Virus record (IMG/VR): IMGVR_UViG_3300025131_000448 | Span: 1-23,372 of that record | DNA from: a virus | Length of the DNA: 23,372 nt | Reading direction: 5' to 3' (one strand) | Shown: positions 3,071-19,241 of the stretch, piece after piece | Layout of the letters: the number at the start of each line of letters is the position of its first letter | Numbering within the stretch: position 1 is the stretch's first letter | Translations under genes and position numbers: made by a program | The notes under the pieces: model-generated | What the model was told of the DNA's origin: nothing | What the model saw: only the letters and a program-made list of their open reading frames with translations | Databases searched by the model: none

Positions 3071-5032
3071 ATGGCAAGAAATGATAATAATCCAAGAAAC
3101 CCAGGATCACCACTATTCAAAAGGCTGACCCGATTACTTTCGGGACCTATTGTAAACTATCGAGCGCAGGTTGCTCGGCAGGAAAAGCGCGGCGAGCTTG
3201 ATAAATATCGATATCGCTTCCGGTCTTTAAGCGGACAAGAGTTCAAACGCTCCGACAATAACATGTCGCAGAACTATAATCTTTTTACGTCAGCTGCATT
3301 CCGAAATCAAAACCGCGCGGAGCGCTATATTGATTTTGAGCAGATGGAATACATGCCCGAGATCGCCTCGGCTATTGATATTTATGCTGACGAGATGACA
3401 ACATGTAATGATTATGACAAGCTCGTGAGCATCGACTGTCGCAATCTAGAAATTAAAACAATTATTGAAACACTGTTCTACGACGCATTAAACATTGAGT
3501 TTAATGCTTTCGGCTGGGCCCGCTCAATGTGTAAATATGGAGACCTGTTCTTGTATATGGACATCGATGAGAAACTTGGAGTGACCTCAGTTATAGGACT
3601 ACCAAATAATGAGGTGGAACGCCTCGAAGGGACAGACCCATCAAACCCGAATTATGTACAGTATCAGTGGAATGGCGGCGGCGTTACCTTTGAGAATTGG
3701 CAGGTTGCACACTTCCGCATTTTGGGCAACGACCGCTACTCCCCATACGGCACATCAGTCCTCGACCCAGCTCGACGCATCTGGCGCCAGCTTGTTTTAC
3801 TAGAGGACGCGATGATTGCTTACCGCGTCGTCCGTGCACCGGAACGACGTATCTTCCAGATCGACGTTGGCAACATCCCTCCGCAAGACGTGCCACAATA
3901 TATGGAGAAGGTCAAGAGTGAAATGAAGAGAAACTCCCTGGTCGATGCCACCACTGGCCGCGTCGACCTTCGCTACAATCCGCTGTCACTTGAAGAAGAT
4001 TATTTCATCCCCATGCGCGGCGGACAAGGATCTGACATTAAGTCTTTAGCGGGCGCCTCGAGCCTTAATGATATTGATGACGTAAAGTACTTGCGCGACA
4101 AGCTGTTTTCAGCGATCAAAATACCTCAGTCTTATCTTACAAACCTAGAAGGTGACACTGAAGACAAAACGACGCTAGCTCAGAAAGACATTCGTTTCGC
4201 GCGAACTATCCAACGTCTGCAGCGACCTTTTGTATCGGAGCTAGAAAAAATCGCTGTGGTACACTTATACACTTTAGGTTTCCGCGGAGAAGACTTAATA
4301 AGCTTTACTTTGTCTCTCAATAACCCTTCGAAATTGGCAGAACTTCAGCAGCTCGAATACATGCGCACTAAGTTCGATGTTGCAAATGCTATTCCAGAGG
4401 GCACATACAGTAAACGATGGGTGGCAAATAACATACTGGGACTATCTGATGACGAATTCTTACGTAATCAACGAGAGTCGTTCTATGATAGGAAGTGGCA
4501 GCAGTCTTTGGAGGCGGTTACAGAACAGGGCGCCGAAGACGCCCTTGCCGGCGGTGACTTAGGCGGAGACCTCGGCGGTGACTTAGGCGGAGACCTCGGC
4601 GGTGACTTAGGGGGCGAAGATCTAGGAGGTGAAGGTGCCGCGGAAGAGACAGGAGACGACTCAGCACTATTAGCTACTCCTGGTCGAAGAGAGGACCTTG
4701 AAGAAGATAACCACACGAGTCATTATTCCAAGAGCCGCACCTATACTCGAAAGGATGGACGATCGGATAAGCGACGGACGTATTCTACCGGTCCTCACCG
4801 CAGGGAGATAAAAAACACAGCCCTCCCGGAGGCACCAGCTCTTCGTAGCGACCGCGTCCGGACCCCAGGATCTTTAGAAATGATAGATTTTACATCACTA
4901 GTAGGACTCGAAGAGAATACTCCATCTATTTATAATAAAAACGAAAGATCTTTAATGGAGAACACCACACGAGTCCGGCGACTCGTTGAAGTAATGGAAA
5001 AAAAAGAGGCTGACAAAGATGAAACACAATAA
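3071..5032 (+). CDS. 20: Portal protein (gp20-like) with long C-terminal extension
   Basis: 653 residues, about 130 longer than T4 gp20. It should form the dodecameric ring at the head vertex through which DNA is packed and to which the neck binds. The core (residues about 30-480) has the features of T4-like portals, for example RYIDFEQMEYMPEIASAIDI near the N-terminus, then DPARRIWRQLVLLEDAMIAY and IPQSYLTNLEG. Residues 494-513 are five GGDL units encoded by a short DNA repeat, then more Gly/Glu-rich sequence. A basic, Ser/Tyr/Arg-rich tail (HYSKSRTYTRKDGRSDKRR) and an acidic-basic end follow. A DLEED segment after the repeat would fit the protease consensus Leu-X-Glu. The 3' end overlaps the next gene by 14 bases. 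Confidence 0.93.
   Translation: MARNDNNPRNPGSPLFKRLTRLLSGPIVNYRAQVARQEKRGELDKYRYRFRSLSGQEFKRSDNNMSQNYNLFTSAAFRNQNRAERYIDFEQMEYMPEIASAIDIYADEMTTCNDYDKLVSIDCRNLEIKTIIETLFYDALNIEFNAFGWARSMCKYGDLFLYMDIDEKLGVTSVIGLPNNEVERLEGTDPSNPNYVQYQWNGGGVTFENWQVAHFRILGNDRYSPYGTSVLDPARRIWRQLVLLEDAMIAYRVVRAPERRIFQIDVGNIPPQDVPQYMEKVKSEMKRNSLVDATTGRVDLRYNPLSLEEDYFIPMRGGQGSDIKSLAGASSLNDIDDVKYLRDKLFSAIKIPQSYLTNLEGDTEDKTTLAQKDIRFARTIQRLQRPFVSELEKIAVVHLYTLGFRGEDLISFTLSLNNPSKLAELQQLEYMRTKFDVANAIPEGTYSKRWVANNILGLSDDEFLRNQRESFYDRKWQQSLEAVTEQGAEDALAGGDLGGDLGGDLGGDLGGDLGGEDLGGEGAAEETGDDSALLATPGRREDLEEDNHTSHYSKSRTYTRKDGRSDKRRTYSTGPHRREIKNTALPEAPALRSDRVRTPGSLEMIDFTSLVGLEENTPSIYNKNERSLMENTTRVRRLVEVMEKKEADKDETQ
4550..4609 (+). 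repeat. 24-bp tandem repeat encoding GGDL units in the portal tail
   Basis: A 24-bp unit (GGCGGTGACTTAGGCGGAGA plus CCTC) is present at 4550-4573 and exactly again at 4574-4597, followed by a half unit to 4609. Each unit encodes GGDLGGDL. The exact identity, including alternation of the synonymous codons GGT/GGA, GAC and TTA/CTC, shows duplication at the DNA level. It lies in frame, so copy-number change would alter only the length of the flexible acidic linker. Confidence 0.9.
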
Positions 5033-6956: not shown

Positions 6957-7277
6957 ATGGAACTACTACACTTTATACTTGCCGCATACGGCATGACATT
7001 CATTATTATACACGGACATATCTTTAATAAGATACGCCCAAAGTGCGAATCCTGGGGCGGCTTTGGTCGTTTATTCCATTGTCACTTATGCATGGGATTC
7101 TGGGTTGGGGTATTTCTGTGGGGCATTAGTCCATACACAGAACTATTTAGTTTTAGTAGTCAGCCCATGACAGCGTTCATGTGCGGTTGCATTAGTGCCG
7201 GAACCTCATACTTTTTGAGTATGCTGGTCGAGGACTACGGGATCCGAGTGATCCATAAAGGAGGTGAGCAATCATGA
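6957..7277 (+). CDS. Small multi-pass membrane protein (DUF1360-like)
   Basis: 106 residues with about three hydrophobic segments: residues 2-21 (ELLHFILAAYGMTFIIIHGH), about 42-58 and about 72-90. The second begins with FHCHLCMGFWVGVFLWG, a Cys-X2-Cys followed by Phe-Trp-X-Gly. That combination is characteristic of the small DUF1360 membrane proteins of bacteria and phages, whose function is unknown. It lies five bases after the hairpin protein, and its stop overlaps the start of a 16-codon ORF (ATGA). The end of its coding sequence contains a perfect ribosome binding site for that ORF. Confidence 0.75.
   Translation: MELLHFILAAYGMTFIIIHGHIFNKIRPKCESWGGFGRLFHCHLCMGFWVGVFLWGISPYTELFSFSSQPMTAFMCGCISAGTSYFLSMLVEDYGIRVIHKGGEQS
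7257..7267 (+). promoter_or_regulatory. Ideal ribosome binding site for the 16-codon ORF
   Basis: AAAGGAGGTGA is fully complementary to the 3' end of bacterial 16S rRNA (UCACCUCCUUU) over 11 bases. The aligned AGGAGG core sits at normal distance from the ATG at 7274. It is the strongest ribosome binding site I see in the window and decides that the short ORF is probably translated. Confidence 0.75.
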
Positions 7278-7324
7278 AAAAATGGATGATCCAACCAGTT
7301 CGACGATGCTGCTCCGGCAGTTGA
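7274..7324 (+). CDS. 16-residue cationic microprotein
   Basis: A 17-codon ORF including stop (MKKWMIQPVRRCCSGS), starting in an ATGA overlap with the preceding membrane-protein gene and preceded by the perfect ribosome binding site at 7257-7267. It is basic, with two adjacent Cys and one Trp. It is too short for gene finders. The translation signals are far better than chance, but the product is not recognised. It could be a functional peptide or a leader whose translation matters more than its product. Twenty-one bases separate its stop from the next gene. Confidence 0.5.
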   Translation: MKKWMIQPVRRCCSGS

Positions 7325-7345
7325 CTACTTTAAAGGAATAATATT

Positions 7346-8422
7346 ATGGCACGCAGAAAAAATGTAAAAAGAATAGATCCGAGATACTTCTTGCACGAGA
7401 CAGTCAATCGTGATATAAACACGGGCGAAGCTCTAGAGGAAGAGAGACAAGCTCCGGTCACTCATTGGATCGCCGGACCCGGCGGACTAGTAGATCAGCA
7501 CGGCGACGTATTTGTTAAACACGGGACACCCTTTGCCGCCCAAAGATCTCCCACCCAACCCGGCATGATGAAAATAGGCGTGAGAATCGGCACTGGCACA
7601 GAGCAATGGTTTAGTGAACGCCCCGTACCCTACGAGGATGTCCAGAAACATTCATCAAACTCAAACTACAATCCACCCCGCCCGGGCCCAGAGCATCGCC
7701 CTCGAAGCGGTTGGAATGAGACGGTGAATCGTAATGATGATGGTTCGGCGCTTGAGGAGTCGGGCGCCGAGATCAACGCGGCATTTGGTGGACCAATTAA
7801 TCTTCGTCTTCCGCAGACGCTGATCGACCGAGTCAAAGAGCTGATGGCGCTCCCTCCGGGCCACCCACACTCGATCACTCCAGAAACCGGACCCACCATC
7901 GTTGTTCAGATCAACAATGCGCTGCAAAAAGCCGATGAGGCCGAGCGCGCCGAACTTCATGCGCTGAAGAAGGAGCTGATAGATAGCGGAGCAGTAAAAC
8001 AGAGCCGCGGACAGGAGGACCGAGAAGCCCATCGACATCGCCGCGCCGTGAATATGGGCGCGCCGCTTGAGGAAGGGGAAGGGGATCTTGATCCGGAGTC
8101 TCTGATCAACAAGACAAAAGAAATCTTAGACTCGGGAGCAGAACTCAGTCTAGACCAAATTCACAACCTCCGTAAGCCCATCAACCGCCTACAAAGGCGA
8201 TTGTATGACGCCGGGAAGAGAGCAGAAAGTTCGAAGCAGTACCAACAGACCGCAGCTCTTCTCCGCGCTCTCGACAAAGCTCAAAAGGCATCCGAACCAG
8301 TGAAGATCTGGACGGGCGACGGCGACGGTGATCCGTACGCCGCTGATCATGAAGAGCGCGGCCAGCGCGCCAAAGCCAACTGGGACAGGGAAATGCACCA
8401 ACGCGGCGGCTTCAAAAGATAA
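7346..8422 (+). CDS. Triplicated LEE-module protein upstream of the prohead protease
   Basis: 358 residues, hydrophilic, no membrane segments. A short module recurs three times: residues 17-32 (HETVNRDINTGEALEE), 124-138 (NETVNRNDDGSALEE) and 232-243 (RRAVNMGAPLEE). Each ends in Leu-Glu-Glu, which fits the T4 prohead protease consensus Leu/Ile-X-Glu. The segments between differ: one Gly/Pro-rich (about 36-120), one with helical LIDRVKELM and AERAELHALKKELID parts (about 150-215), and one helical and basic (about 250-320). The protease gene begins three bases downstream. I infer a prohead-core or internal head protein that may be cut into pieces; there is no recognised domain. AAAGGA at 7332-7337 is the ribosome binding site. 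Confidence 0.8.
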   Translation: MARRKNVKRIDPRYFLHETVNRDINTGEALEEERQAPVTHWIAGPGGLVDQHGDVFVKHGTPFAAQRSPTQPGMMKIGVRIGTGTEQWFSERPVPYEDVQKHSSNSNYNPPRPGPEHRPRSGWNETVNRNDDGSALEESGAEINAAFGGPINLRLPQTLIDRVKELMALPPGHPHSITPETGPTIVVQINNALQKADEAERAELHALKKELIDSGAVKQSRGQEDREAHRHRRAVNMGAPLEEGEGDLDPESLINKTKEILDSGAELSLDQIHNLRKPINRLQRRLYDAGKRAESSKQYQQTAALLRALDKAQKASEPVKIWTGDGDGDPYAADHEERGQRAKANWDREMHQRGGFKR

Positions 8423-8425
8423 ACA

Positions 8426-9046
8426 ATGCCCCAACTTCTACGAGAATACTATGAACTATGCGAAGGCGGCGTCTGTCAGGATCTACTGACGGAAGCCGAG
8501 AAGCGTTTCGTTAGCGAAGGCGGAATGATGCTGTCTGGTAAGCTGCAGGAAGCAGATTGTCAAAATGGTAATGGACGCGTGTATCCTCACTCCATTATGG
8601 AGCGAGAAGTTAAAAAGTACAAGGCTCTTGTAGATGATCACCGTGCGTTAGGAGAACTAGATCATCCTGACTCTTCTATTATTAATCTGGTTAATGTATC
8701 TCATATGGTAACAGAGGTATGGATGGATGGACCATCAGTTATGGGCAAGATTAAAGTACTTGGTACTCCCTCTGGTCAAATCCTCAAAGCCCTGGTGGAG
8801 TCCGGAGTGAAAACAGGGATCTCATCGAGAGGCATGGGGTCTGTAAGAGAACATCAGGGCAAAACGATTGTAGAAGATGACTTCCAGCTGATCTGCTTTG
8901 ATATTGTGTCAGAACCCTCGACGCCGAATGCTTTTATGGCGTTGCAAGAAAATAAACTTATGAACAAGAAAGTTGAGAAGACAAATAAGATTCTCAGCCT
9001 AATGAATGAAATATTGGAGAAACAAGATGCTTATACCTCAAAATGA
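8426..9046 (+). CDS. 21: Prohead core protease (gp21-like, peptidase family S77)
   Basis: 206 residues, similar to T4 gp21 (212). This serine protease is built into the prohead core and cuts scaffold, capsid and internal proteins after Leu/Ile-X-Glu during maturation. Visible hallmarks are GNGRVYP near residue 50, the His in GELDHPD (His80), the nucleophile region GISSRGMGS (Ser133/Ser134) and an FDIVSEPSTP segment (Asp159). An LTE at residues 21-23 could be a self-cleavage site, since gp21 removes itself from the head. The start is three bases after the preceding gene, and the end overlaps the following gene by 20 bases. Confidence is high because the His and Ser motifs and the family spacing are both present. 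Confidence 0.94.
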   Translation: MPQLLREYYELCEGGVCQDLLTEAEKRFVSEGGMMLSGKLQEADCQNGNGRVYPHSIMEREVKKYKALVDDHRALGELDHPDSSIINLVNVSHMVTEVWMDGPSVMGKIKVLGTPSGQILKALVESGVKTGISSRGMGSVREHQGKTIVEDDFQLICFDIVSEPSTPNAFMALQENKLMNKKVEKTNKILSLMNEILEKQDAYTSK

Positions 9047-9767
9047 TCTAGAGGAGATCATCAAAGAAGAAATCGAGAAAGCAATTAACGAAGGTTGGCT
9101 GGATCGAATGATCGGAAAAGGTTCTGGACTAGCTTCCCGCGCCGCCGGCGCCATGTCTGGTCTCGGCGCTAAAGCTGCCCGCGGACTAGGCGCCGACACT
9201 GCCGCCGGCGAAATGGAGGCCGCCGGCGCCGCGCGCACAGCTGATGCCCCAAATCAGGAAAAGCTGGGACTAATGAAGCAGCATGCTCGCAAGTTTAGTA
9301 TTATGTCGGCCGACATGATCAAAGATGCCAAGAAGCTAGAGCTGCTGACAGATCCCAATTTTAAGAAAGCATTAGCTGCAACCAAAGCAGTAGCAACACG
9401 TCTGAACAACATTGTGACAGCTTGGGAAAAGGCCCCCCAAGAGATGCCAGGCGCAGAATCCGGCACCGAGCAAGGAGCAGCCGACAGCGCCAACCTCATC
9501 GCCTCACTCAGCTCCGGCGACCCTGTTGTATATACTGACGCAAAAGGGAAGAAGAAGAAAGCGACCGTCGTAAAGGCTCTAGATACTAAGGACGCGCAGG
9601 GAGATCCCCAGATTCAACTGAAAGTCGGCACCGCCGTATTTGCAGTAGACCAATCAAGTATTGACCTCGACAAAGAGGTCGCGGACCGACAAGCCGCCGG
9701 TTCCCCGGCGATCCGTGAGATCCTTAAAAAGGTTATACGAGAAGAGTTAGAAAGTTTGAGTAAATAG
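9027..9767 (+). CDS. Unknown, likely head-associated protein with terminal amphipathic helices
   Basis: 246 residues from the ATG at 9027. An upstream in-frame ATG at 9006 exists, but 9027 has a GGAG ribosome binding site about eight bases before it, so it is preferred. The N-terminus has an amphipathic acidic-basic helix (LEEIIKEEIEKAINEGW). A Gly/Ala-rich flexible region follows (about residues 30-70), then a helical middle. Residues about 160-215 resemble a small beta-barrel (DPVVYTDAKGKKKKATVV, later TAVFAVDQSSIDLD). The C-terminus has another helix of the same style (IREILKKVIREELESL). It starts inside the protease gene, so it is translated with it. A structural or prohead-core role is likely by context; no family is recognised. 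Confidence 0.75.
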   Translation: MLIPQNDLEEIIKEEIEKAINEGWLDRMIGKGSGLASRAAGAMSGLGAKAARGLGADTAAGEMEAAGAARTADAPNQEKLGLMKQHARKFSIMSADMIKDAKKLELLTDPNFKKALAATKAVATRLNNIVTAWEKAPQEMPGAESGTEQGAADSANLIASLSSGDPVVYTDAKGKKKKATVVKALDTKDAQGDPQIQLKVGTAVFAVDQSSIDLDKEVADRQAAGSPAIREILKKVIREELESLSK

Positions 9768-9770
9768 AGA

Positions 9771-10220
9771 ATGAAAAAATCTGAGTTAAAGAATATTTTA
9801 AAGCCCCTTATTAAAGAATGTATAAAAGAGGCCATATTTGAAGATGGGGTCTTATCGGGGATAATAACCGAAGTGGTTCAGGGCATGAAGGTCATCCGAA
9901 CCGAAGCTCCTGCGACGATCGTCCCTAAAGTAAGTGCCGACGTCCAGCGTCTACAGCGCAATGCCTTTAGCGAGCAATCCAAAACAAAACTACAAGATCA
10001 TAAAAGTAAATTAATGGCAGCTATTGGTGGAGATTCATTTAACGGGGCTAACCTATTCGAAGGTACCACTCCGGCAATGGGTGAATCATCCATGACACAG
10101 CAAGCTGCGCCTATGTCCGGTGTAGAGCCCACCGACCGCGGAGTCGACATAAGTGGTCTATTGGGCACCGTCGGCCGAAATTGGACTGCTCATATGGGTG
10201 GCGTAAAAGAAGGAAAGTAG
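9771..10220 (+). CDS. Unknown head-region protein
   Basis: 149 residues. It opens with an amphipathic helix (KKSELKNILKPLIKECIKEA) like those at both ends of the preceding protein. It continues with a Met/Pro-rich middle (about residues 80-120, with LFEGTTPAMGESS) and ends in a Gly/Trp-containing tail (VDISGLLGTVGRNWTAHMGG). No membrane segment or enzyme motif is visible. It lies three bases after the previous gene and seven before the bS21 gene, so it is part of the protease transcription unit. I infer a small virion or assembly factor; the specific role is unknown. Confidence 0.75.
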   Translation: MKKSELKNILKPLIKECIKEAIFEDGVLSGIITEVVQGMKVIRTEAPATIVPKVSADVQRLQRNAFSEQSKTKLQDHKSKLMAAIGGDSFNGANLFEGTTPAMGESSMTQQAAPMSGVEPTDRGVDISGLLGTVGRNWTAHMGGVKEGK

Positions 10221-12719: not shown

Positions 12720-14210
12720 ATGGCATATAAATTTCAGAAAGGGACAGCAAACCTTTCAGGATCAATTAAACTTGACTCAGGATATGATCTCCTCGCCGCC
12801 GGATCCAACGATCTCGGCACGAGCGCTGCAAACTTTGCAGTAGGTTATGTTTCTGTTCTCAGCGCTAGTACAGTAGTTTCTGGCGCATTCTTTGAAGGTA
12901 ACGCATCCAGAATGACGGGGATTGCCGCTACTGACGTTACAACAACTGGTACATCTACCAATTCGGATTTCTATCCGCTTTTCGTTGATACCGCAGCTGG
13001 TGAATCTGGAGAAACTGTTCGAGTTCACTCCACGGTTGCAATTAACCCGGGCACAGGTAAACTGTCTGCAACGTCAGTGAGTGCCTCAACAGGTACAGGT
13101 AGCTTCGGCGGCGGCATTAGTGCCGGCAACGCCGGCTTTACTGTTGGCTACACAGGCGCAGTGACTTCTACTGCCGCTATCACTGCAGGCACCTCGTTCA
13201 TCATCGGTTCTGCCGACTTGAACGAAGCCGATATGGAGAAGCTTGATGGTATTACTAACGGTACTGCCGCTGCTTCCAAGGCTGTCGTCTTGGATGCATC
13301 CAAGGACGTCGCTGGTCTCAACGATGTCTCAGCTGCTGGTTTGACTTTGTCAGATCTAGATGAAGGCGGCATTCTGTTCGCCGGCTCGTCCGGTGCGCTA
13401 AACACCTCCGTTGACAACCTCCAGTGGGCCGAAGACCGCGAAGACAACGACGGCTATCTAAGTCTGTTCGTTTCTTCTTCTGCCAGTGGTAGCGGCCAAC
13501 TCGGTGACGGGATGTTCATGCTGACGGATGCAGAAGACGATGACATCTGTTATATCAACTATGAAGGCGCCGAATTCGCAGTCAACCTCGAGGTTGACGG
13601 TACGGTTTCTGGTTCTGGCGTTCTAAGTGTCGGTGCCGGCGCAACGTTGGCTGGTGCTCTCAACCTGCAAGCTGGTGGAATCACCAATGCTGGTTCGATT
13701 GCTGGTGCAACCACAATCTCTGGTTCTGGCGCTCTAAGTGTTGGTGCCGGCGCAACGTTGGCTGGTGCTCTCAACCTGCAAGCTGGTGGAATCACCAATG
13801 CTGGTTCGATTGCTGGTGCAACCACAATCTCTGGTTCTGGCGCTCTAAGTGTTGGTGCTGGTGCAACACTTGCTGGTGCTCTTAGTCTTAACGCCGGCGT
13901 TGACTTCGGAGGTCAGAAGACATTAACTGCAAGTGTGAACCTTGATGTAGCTGGAGGGTCTGGTATCTATCACGTCCACAGTCACTATATTGTAAGCGGT
14001 TCCTCAGCTGTTGTGGTTGATTTGCCAAGCCTTGAGAACGGTGATTCCATGTGGTTTAAACGTCACCCAAGCATGACAAACGATGTTACAATCCGGCCTA
14101 GTGGGTCTACCAACTTGATTGATGGTATTAATGATCCGGTAGTGTTGGAAACGGCGGGTGCTTCTATGCAGCTAGTTGGTTCGGGTTCCCTGAACTGGTA
14201 CATCTACTAA
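12720..14210 (+). CDS. Fibre protein with 111-bp internal repeats
   Basis: 496 residues, low in charge and rich in Gly, Ala, Ser and Thr. The N-terminus (MAYKFQKGTANLSGSI) is shared with the next gene and may be an anchoring tag. The middle includes ADMEKLDGITNGTAAASKAV, a motif style common in phage tail fibres, then about two and a half copies of a 37-residue repeat (each with SVGAGATLAGALNLQAGGIT). A C-terminal module of about 75 residues (IYHVHSHYIVSGSSAVVVDL, later TNLIDGINDPVVLE, ending LNWYIY) is paralogous to those of both neighbouring fibre proteins. The repeats suggest a beta-helical shaft of variable length. It is a trimeric fibre by family habit. Whether it attaches to the tail, neck or head is not known. 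Confidence 0.85.
   Translation: MAYKFQKGTANLSGSIKLDSGYDLLAAGSNDLGTSAANFAVGYVSVLSASTVVSGAFFEGNASRMTGIAATDVTTTGTSTNSDFYPLFVDTAAGESGETVRVHSTVAINPGTGKLSATSVSASTGTGSFGGGISAGNAGFTVGYTGAVTSTAAITAGTSFIIGSADLNEADMEKLDGITNGTAAASKAVVLDASKDVAGLNDVSAAGLTLSDLDEGGILFAGSSGALNTSVDNLQWAEDREDNDGYLSLFVSSSASGSGQLGDGMFMLTDAEDDDICYINYEGAEFAVNLEVDGTVSGSGVLSVGAGATLAGALNLQAGGITNAGSIAGATTISGSGALSVGAGATLAGALNLQAGGITNAGSIAGATTISGSGALSVGAGATLAGALSLNAGVDFGGQKTLTASVNLDVAGGSGIYHVHSHYIVSGSSAVVVDLPSLENGDSMWFKRHPSMTNDVTIRPSGSTNLIDGINDPVVLETAGASMQLVGSGSLNWYIY
13608..13889 (+). repeat. 111-bp tandem repeat, 2.5 copies, in the fibre gene
   Basis: Unit 1 is 13608-13718, unit 2 is 13719-13829, and a third, diverged partial unit runs from 13830 to about 13889. 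Units 1 and 2 differ at only two bases near their starts (GTTCTAAGTGTC versus GCTCTAAGTGTT). The unit is 37 codons, so the reading frame is kept. Near identity, including synonymous positions, indicates recent duplication or homogenisation. Confidence 0.95.
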
Positions 14211-17465: not shown

Positions 17466-19241
17466 ATGTCTATTGTACAGAAATTAACAGAAGGCATCGT
17501 TAACCGTGATCTTTCTTCGGAAGGCTCTGCCCTCATTGCAAAATGGGAACAGACCGGTCTTCTGGAGGGTCTCGGTTCCGATGATTCTAAAAACGGTATG
17601 GCTCGATTGCTTGAAAATCAGGCAAAAGAGCTTCTCCGTGAGTCCAGTTCCATGGCCGCAGGCGGGGATGTTGAGGGCTTTGCAGCCGTCGCGTTCCCAC
17701 TCGTCCGTCGTGTATTCGGCTCCTTGATCGCTAACGAACTTGTTAGTGTTCAGCCGATGAGTCTCCCCTCGGGACTTATCTTCTTCCTCGACTTCACCTA
17801 TGGTGGTGTTGTAGAGGATACGACAACCGCTCGACTCGGATTCGAGGTTGGTAAATCAGTGTATGGTGGCGACGTTGTCGGTGCCCAGATCACTGGTGGT
17901 GTTGATCTAAGTGGTCACGATGGCGAAGATGCTGGTGGTGTGTATAACTTACGCAACGGCTACTCTTCTCCAACGGGATCGGCTGCGACAAGCCCCGCCT
18001 GCGACATCTCTGGTAACATTGATGGCGGCGGCGCTGTTGGTGACAACGCTCTCTCCAATGGCTGGACCTCAGCTATCGGCGGTGGCGGACTCACCGCACA
18101 GTACATCAGTGCTCAGATGCTGAAGTATGATCCTGATCTTACTTCGGGCTCTAGCTTTGCTGTTTTAACACAGGACCTTTCGTCCACACAGTTCAACTAT
18201 GATGACCTTGTTGGCATCGATGCTCAGTGGACCACAGCGCTCAACCCTGACAATGACATTCAGATTATTCGTCGACTGTCTTCATTAAGTAAGTCCTCTG
18301 ATCTGTCGACCACATCTGATGGTATCGTCCGTATCGTCGCTGTTGGTACTGGTTCGGCCGCACAGGTCGGCGCAGCACTTAATGCTGCAACGCTGACGTA
18401 TCCCATCGTGGACAACTTCGGTGGCAACACTACAGGTAACCCAATTGGTGCGGTTCTGCCGGCTACCACGTGGGGACTTGAAGGTGCTGATAACATCCCC
18501 GAGATCGACATCAAGGTCGATTCCGTGGCTGTCACTGCAATGACCAAGAAGCTCAAGGCCAAGTGGACCCCAGAGTTAGGACAGGATCTTAACGCTTACC
18601 ACAACCTTGACGCTGAGGTTGAGCTGACTCAGATTCTTTCTGAGCAGATTGCTCTTGAGATTGATCAGGAGATCCTTGAGGACCTCGTTAAGGGTTCGAC
18701 GGCCGGAGTTCGCTTCTGGTCTCGCAACCCCGGCGATTTCCTTAATCGTACGACTGGCGCTGCCAACTCTTCGCCTGAGTTCACCGGTAACGTGTCTGAG
18801 TGGTATGAGACCCTCGTTGAGACTATCAACGATGTCTCCGCTCTGATTCACCGTAAGACTCTGCGTGGTGCTGCTAACTTTGTGGTGTGTTCACCTGAAG
18901 TTGCTAACTTGCTTGAGTTCACTGCTGGCTTCCGTGCCAACGTGACTGCTGATAGCGATCGTGGTGACATCGGTGCTGTTAAGGTCGGTTCGCTTTCGAA
19001 GAAGTTCGACGTTATGGTCGATCCTTACTTCCCGCGTAACATCATTTTGGTGGGACGTCGTGGTAGTAGTTTCCTCGAGAGTGGTTATGTGTATGCACCC
19101 TATGTGCCGCTGCAGACCACACCTACGATCTTCGGTGTTGAAGATTTCGTGCCCCGTAAGGGAGTCATGACTCGATACGCCAAGAAGATGGTTCGCCCGG
19201 ATATGTATGGCTTAGTTGTCGTTAAGGCTCTGAACGAATAA
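17466..19241 (+). CDS. 23: Major capsid protein (gp23-like)
   Basis: 591 residues (T4 gp23 521). It should form the hexamers of the head. The N-terminal part (residues 1-59) looks like the propeptide: helical, ending MARLLENQAKELLRE, where Leu-Arg-Glu59 fits the prohead-protease consensus and lies near the T4 cut after residue 65. The mature protein would start SSSMAAGGDVEGFAAVAFPL. HK97-fold landmarks of gp23 include VQPMSLPSGLIFFLDFTYG (about 95-115) and, in the C-terminal half, GVRFWSRNPGDFLNRTTGA. The extra length falls mainly in a Gly/Ser-rich region around residues 135-215. A perfect ribosome binding site precedes it and a strong terminator follows. No separate vertex protein (gp24) is seen in the window. 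Confidence 0.96.
   Translation: MSIVQKLTEGIVNRDLSSEGSALIAKWEQTGLLEGLGSDDSKNGMARLLENQAKELLRESSSMAAGGDVEGFAAVAFPLVRRVFGSLIANELVSVQPMSLPSGLIFFLDFTYGGVVEDTTTARLGFEVGKSVYGGDVVGAQITGGVDLSGHDGEDAGGVYNLRNGYSSPTGSAATSPACDISGNIDGGGAVGDNALSNGWTSAIGGGGLTAQYISAQMLKYDPDLTSGSSFAVLTQDLSSTQFNYDDLVGIDAQWTTALNPDNDIQIIRRLSSLSKSSDLSTTSDGIVRIVAVGTGSAAQVGAALNAATLTYPIVDNFGGNTTGNPIGAVLPATTWGLEGADNIPEIDIKVDSVAVTAMTKKLKAKWTPELGQDLNAYHNLDAEVELTQILSEQIALEIDQEILEDLVKGSTAGVRFWSRNPGDFLNRTTGAANSSPEFTGNVSEWYETLVETINDVSALIHRKTLRGAANFVVCSPEVANLLEFTAGFRANVTADSDRGDIGAVKVGSLSKKFDVMVDPYFPRNIILVGRRGSSFLESGYVYAPYVPLQTTPTIFGVEDFVPRKGVMTRYAKKMVRPDMYGLVVVKALNE

Follow-up and report, generated by a model that had tools for sequence, protein, structure and literature searches.

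A putative precursor of three internal head proteins, apparently fused from leader-bearing genes, beside the prohead protease gene of an uncultured marine phage

The window, a 23,372-nucleotide stretch of viral DNA (positions 1 to 23,372 of IMG/VR record IMGVR_UViG_3300025131_000448), carries a 358 aa open reading frame, P0001, at positions 7346-8422. Its stop codon (TAA, 8420-8422) is separated by a 3-base gap from the ATG at 8426 of the next gene; both positions and the Peptidase_S77 match of that gene bear out a preliminary description of this DNA, in which the protease gene was said to begin three bases downstream. The features discussed here are as follows.

7316..7345, plus strand: conserved 5' flank, including a ribosome-binding site (GGCAGTTGACTACTTTAAAGGAATAATATT); almost unchanged ahead of unrelated cargos in many relatives
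7346..8422, plus strand: P0001, putative tagged cargo polyprotein, 358 aa
7346..7399, plus strand: leader MARRKNVKRIDPRYFLHE, aa 1-18, probable capsid-targeting sequence with FLxE end, predicted cut after E18
7400..7441, plus strand: remainder of tag 1, aa 19-32, with LEE end as second predicted cut site
7442..7714, plus strand: cargo 1, aa 33-123, predicted beta-rich domain; related one-cargo genes in loci L240 and L250
7715..7759, plus strand: internal tag 2 NETVNRNDDGSALEE, aa 124-138, leader cleavage half, predicted cut after E138
7760..8038, plus strand: cargo 2, aa 139-231, predicted helical; stand-alone at L025:6943-7416, fused in L212 and L294
8039..8074, plus strand: internal tag 3 RRAVNMGAPLEE, aa 232-243, degenerate, predicted cut after E243; weakest boundary
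8075..8419, plus strand: cargo 3, aa 244-358, predicted helical domain; searches gave no relative
8426..9046, plus strand: prohead maturation protease (Peptidase_S77), presumed processing enzyme, by Pfam, PHROG and alignment to T4 gp21
17466..19241, plus strand: major capsid protein, Gp23 family (Pfam/PHROG), evidence for a T4-type head

The gene after P0001 encodes an S77 prohead protease (PF03420, 2.3e-30; PHROG head maturation protease, 2.5e-55). H85 and S140 of T4 gp21, presumably the catalytic residues of family S77, are conserved in it as H80 and S133. Together with the Gp23 capsid gene, it gives the window the T4-type head genes that would accompany an internal protein of the T4 kind. 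Elsewhere in the window are a portal-like protein with a GGDL repeat run near its C-terminus (3071-5032) and a predicted fibre-like protein with near-identical internal repeats SGALSVGAGATLAGALNLQAGGITNAGSIAGATTI (12720-14210). Immediately 5' of the leader gene lies a short open reading frame, MKKWMIQPVRRCCSGS (7274-7324), which ends within GGCAGTTGACTACTTTAAAGG, a sequence conserved 5' of many leader genes.

The preliminary description recognized in P0001 three tags ending in LEE, of the Leu/Ile-X-Glu form associated with T4-type prohead proteases. Its coordinates for the reading frame and the residues proved exact, and the three LEE (residues 30-32, 136-138 and 241-243) exceed chance (shuffle mean 0.20, P(>=3) = 0.00075). 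The total number of [LI]xE in P0001 is ordinary, at 4 against 3.7 expected, and all four are within tags. The fourth, FLHE at residues 15-18, had been overlooked, and FL-x-E is the family's most conserved candidate cut site. Each segment had also been credited with a targeting-and-cleavage tag of its own; the internal tags do carry the putative cleavage half, but the putative targeting half, MARRKNVKRIDPRYFL, is present in tag 1 only. Tag 2, which in context reads W-NETVNRNDDGSALEE, is identical at 15/15 residues to tags of other phages, for example the leader of L199. Since it is a 15-residue copy of such leaders, the joint falls inside a former leader, whose targeting half would have been lost there and whose cleavage half was kept. 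Tag 3 is a weak match to the tags (shuffle p = 0.01 as protein, 0.006 as DNA), and of the predicted cuts the one after E243 is the least certain. Internal translation starts at the tags were considered and rejected: GTG or ATG codons occur in frame, but without a Shine-Dalgarno sequence. The exact fusion is found on one metagenomic contig only, that of the window; the reading frame runs uninterrupted through both joints, an argument against chimeric assembly.

At full length, P0001 has no match among viral contigs and GenBank phages, none in PHROGs and none at a usable level in Pfam. Its N-terminus, on the other hand, belongs to a large family. A phmmer search of open reading frames from 160 IMG/VR loci, gathered through their protease and capsid genes, returned about 34 relatives, nearly all immediately 5' of the protease and similar to P0001 mainly in the first 20-30 residues. 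A DNA pattern for KRIDPRYF, run over viral contigs, yielded at least 126 distinct proteins, at least 119 once contained fragments are removed. The leader M-x-RKN-x-KRIDPRYFL-x-E is common to these at least 119 distinct IMG/VR proteins and is followed by unrelated cargos, which form at least 64 sequence groups, 50 of them singletons, among the 119 listed members. The consensus is MARRKNVKRIDPRYFL-x-E-T. R9, D11, P12, R13, Y14, F15 and E18 are invariant in an alignment of 114 listed members, an invariance that is by construction within KRIDPRYF (fixed by the search) and at the L/M after F (fixed by extraction); E18 was not required. The E of FLxE is present in 119/119 listed members, as is F-[LM]-x-E, with L in 95%. 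This leader end is built like ...EFIAE, the tag of T4 internal proteins, so that in site form the leader ends as a capsid-targeting sequence (CTS) of the T4 type does, and cutting there is predicted.

Neither leader nor P0001 has a match in 50,697 phage records (GenBank, T4 included), and no homology to the CTS or mature part of T4 internal proteins appears in phage records or PHROGs. The 16 pattern matches in cellular genomes are at chance level only, and those that translate show no leader. Pfam, PHROGs and PADLOC gave only weak, isolated matches for the 114 listed members, none convincing, including to known anti-defence families; the same members show no known enzymatic or peptidase domain of the sort found in polyvalent proteins (Pfam, PADLOC). 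About 65 of 91 listed leader genes with a protease in the same locus sit directly 5' of it (some contigs in this count were fetched twice); others belong to tandem arrays and are placed one or two genes farther 5', ten are 6-11 kb off, and some other leader genes are on fragments where no protease was found. Three genes consist of almost the leader alone (L024:7176-7304, a 26-aa open reading frame in L162 and a 38-aa one in L271) and are perhaps decayed or cargo-less tags.

Turnover of the cargos is rapid. Among 39 phages with both leader and protease, a cargo is common to 8-11% of pairs, whether the proteases are <65% or 85-99% identical, and the nine phages closest to the window by protease (85-91%) include none with a detectably shared cargo. 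Genes whose cargos are unrelated have nearly the same leader DNA and nearly the same sequence in part of the 5' flank. Synonymous-codon difference is 0.25 in the leader, 0.31-0.40 in the first 18 codons of the protease gene and 0.37-0.65 in the first 18 of other genes. Such conservation would suit two homology arms flanking an exchangeable cargo, although it is suggestive only.

An AlphaFold2 model of P0001, built from only six aligned sequences (mean pLDDT 66), falls below pLDDT 50 at residues 1-34, 109-143 and 220-247, the three tag regions. The predicted folded blocks are beta-rich (38-99) and helical (about 156-213 and 250-316). In this model all three tags are in disordered linkers beside or between the folded segments. 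Foldseek against PDB and BFVD gave no significant match for P0001.

The preliminary description compared P0001 to three internal proteins joined in one gene, and alignment of homologues upholds this in that tags are conserved, segments vary, and segments 1 and 2 are separate genes in relatives. Segment 1 (33-123) matches one-cargo genes with a full leader in L250 and L240 (49% and 47%; E = 2e-19 and 8e-17), and segment 2 (139-231) matches another leader-bearing one-cargo gene, L025:6943-7416 (47%, 7e-10). Segment 3 has no relative found; its homology to segment 2 was considered and is unsupported (hhalign probability 6%). Stand-alone cargos mapped onto longer family members define 14 joints. 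Grouping by evident common descent, and adding L294, gives 11, with L212 and L294 entered separately despite a possible common origin. At 11/11 joints an [LI]xE is found at, or no more than about seven residues from, the stand-alone tag site, mostly offset by zero or one residue, and at 11/11 its middle residue differs. By chance, a 13-position stretch would include a site with probability 0.10 in all cargos and 0.18 in fused cargos. The joints look as if only the positions recognized by the protease had been held. In L298 two blocks are linked by QLEEG, the second being without a stand-alone match. Read from sequence, the slot is modular, with cargos swapped, fused and split among marine phages.

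We therefore favour, with a probability of roughly 0.7, the reading of P0001 as a precursor from which three internal head proteins derive, one that arose by fusion of leader-bearing genes in a slot of rapid cargo exchange. It is somewhat less certain, though still probable, that several head-packaged and probably injected proteins are carried in one chain behind a single leader and freed in the prohead by the maturation protease. Docking in the prohead core would be the task of the N-terminal leader, as it is of the CTS in T4 IPI-III. The S77 protease encoded by the next gene would cut after FLHE and/or LEE, freeing the leader, and likewise after each internal LEE; the products, as many as three small folded proteins, would then stay in the head and be ejected with the DNA, with early action in the host as their likely benefit. 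The gene itself would have originated from once-separate leader-bearing genes, each added one losing the targeting half and keeping the cut site. Rapid exchange would most simply follow from action against host defences, as with T4 IPI and IPIII, and the cargo slot of the family is perhaps an anti-defence one.

The joint sites could instead be inherited remnants of fusion, the protease cutting at the leader alone and the three segments remaining one multidomain virion protein. Restriction of the targeting half to tag 1 would fit such a protein, as would the many one-cargo members, which need just the leader cut. Inheritance at fusion, as the sequences read, accounts for the presence of the sites, but not for P3 and P1 being kept while P2 changes at every one of the 11 joints. 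Cargo interiors, moreover, are poor in sites, and L011, L172, L254 and P0001 have no [LI]xE beyond tags and joints. Cutting at the leader alone is for these reasons unlikely, though it deserves more weight than the alternatives considered below.

The distribution of sites across the family bears on these alternatives. In 102/119 listed members FLxE is followed, at most 25 residues on, by a second [LIM]xE, which the other 17 lack. Per residue, [LI]xE stands at 5.0% and 3.5% in the first two 10-residue bins past FLxE, about 0.35% over the following 30-40 residues and about 1% beyond. The tag region holds 101 [LI]xE against 32 in shuffles of the same stretches (3.2x, z 13.8), and cargos hold 0.82 of the shuffled expectation; with one member per cargo group the figures are 52 against 18.9 expected in the tag and 43.6 against 63.6 expected in the cargo. 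Among control patterns in the tag region, [LI]xD, [LI]xxE and [LI]xxxE are depleted, [AV]xE and [FWY]xE show no enrichment, and those that overlap the site ([LI]E, E[LI] and Ex[LI]) are only slightly elevated, at 1.4-1.8x. As a T4 control (AF158101), IPI, IPII and IPIII have one [LI]xE each, near the N-terminus, which in IPII and IPIII is IAE at residues 8-10; this IAE is reported to govern processing of the IPIII CTS (PMC9026906).

Could P0001 be a core or scaffold protein, like T4 gp67, gp68 and gp22, which is chopped to peptides during maturation and mostly lost? Its gene is placed as T4 gene 68 is, directly before the protease gene, and the annotation of T4 gp67 describes a precursor of internal peptides. 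Core proteins, however, are full of sites (16 [LI]xE in T4 gp22, 5 in the 141 aa of gp68 and 21 in the scaffold candidate of the window), whereas the present cargos are depleted of them and the four of P0001 are all in tags. Nor, unlike an essential scaffold, are cargos conserved between phages with 85-91% identical proteases, and P0001 has predicted folded domains. We regard a core protein as quite improbable, and the term "prohead-core protein" of the preliminary description is better replaced by internal-protein (cargo) precursor, given the abundance of L/I-x-E in T4 core proteins and its scarcity in these cargos. Less probable still is docking of the leader elsewhere than in the capsid (e.g., at the tail or a host target), with L/I-x-E incidental to an acidic linker: it would suit the leader genes at a distance of 6-11 kb from the protease and those on fragments that yielded no protease, but the spacing is specific, that acidic stretch showing no enrichment of [LI]xxE, [LI]xD or [AV]xE, and the E of FLxE is universal among the listed members.

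For the preferred internal-protein precursor, the closest known kind is the set of T-even internal proteins with a shared CTS, and the best reading, by analogy, is that P0001 would work as T4 IPI-III do. T4 IPI acts as an inhibitor of the gmrS/gmrD nuclease, T4 depends on IPIII when its host is strain ECOR17, and Rao and Black describe the T-even internal proteins as diverse defence proteins with only the CTS in common (PMC3012670, PMC9391042). Likenesses are the short N-terminal tag ending in aromatic-[L/I]-x-E (EFIAE in IPII and IPIII, YFLxE in the leader family), one tag on diverse cargos with no or few other [LI]xE, small genes in tandem, and a T4-type protease. Unlike in T4, the tag sequence is unrelated save for the site, the genes are mostly beside the protease gene, and several cargos with internal sites may share one chain, an arrangement not found described for T4 internal proteins. 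No description of a polyprotein route for head cargo was found in the literature examined, and both the leader and the polyprotein form appear to be new.

The nearest precedent for a multi-module injected protein is that of the polyvalent proteins (Iyer 2017, PMC5512222) which, like P1 Dar, and as we infer for P0001, place several modules in one host-delivered protein; that paper itself draws the polyprotein analogy. Polyvalent proteins have embedded peptidases and known enzymatic domains (PMC5512222), whereas the modules of P0001 are small, include no embedded peptidase, and are bounded by sites compatible with the head maturation protease encoded immediately downstream. In SPN3US gp53 (PMC10052503) one prohead protease makes several cuts in one head protein, as predicted for P0001; the cuts in gp53 remove a propeptide and follow the motif AxE, whereas the P0001 sites lie between predicted folded cargo modules found elsewhere as separate genes. 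T4 gp67 and gp68 share with P0001 the map position beside the protease gene but no sequence that was found, and leader-family cargos differ from them in being variable and depleted of cut sites.

If the proposed reading is true, it extends the T4 internal-protein idea to a large group of uncultured marine phages. The tag RKN-x-KRIDPRYFL-x-E would then predict head-packaged proteins among phage proteins lacking an assigned function, at least 64 cargo groups could be screened for anti-defence activity, and proteins might be loaded into these heads with the leader as a candidate targeting tag.

A second N-terminal tag, with a consensus of about MKITKxQLKQIIKEELxxVLNE and several [LI]xE, is present on at least 92 small open reading frames of unlike sequence in the loci examined, among them L166, L187, L191, L192, L217 and L247; a text search of the literature found neither this tag nor the leader sequence. 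These reading frames are often in tandem arrays, interleaved with RIDPRYFLxE genes. In the window, the genes that follow the protease (9021-9767 and 9771-10220) carry divergent tags of this type, and an IIKEEL-type motif is also found at the C-termini of 12 open reading frames (among them those in L026, L051 and L223, and SPAIREILKKVIREELESLSK at 9700-9767 of the window).
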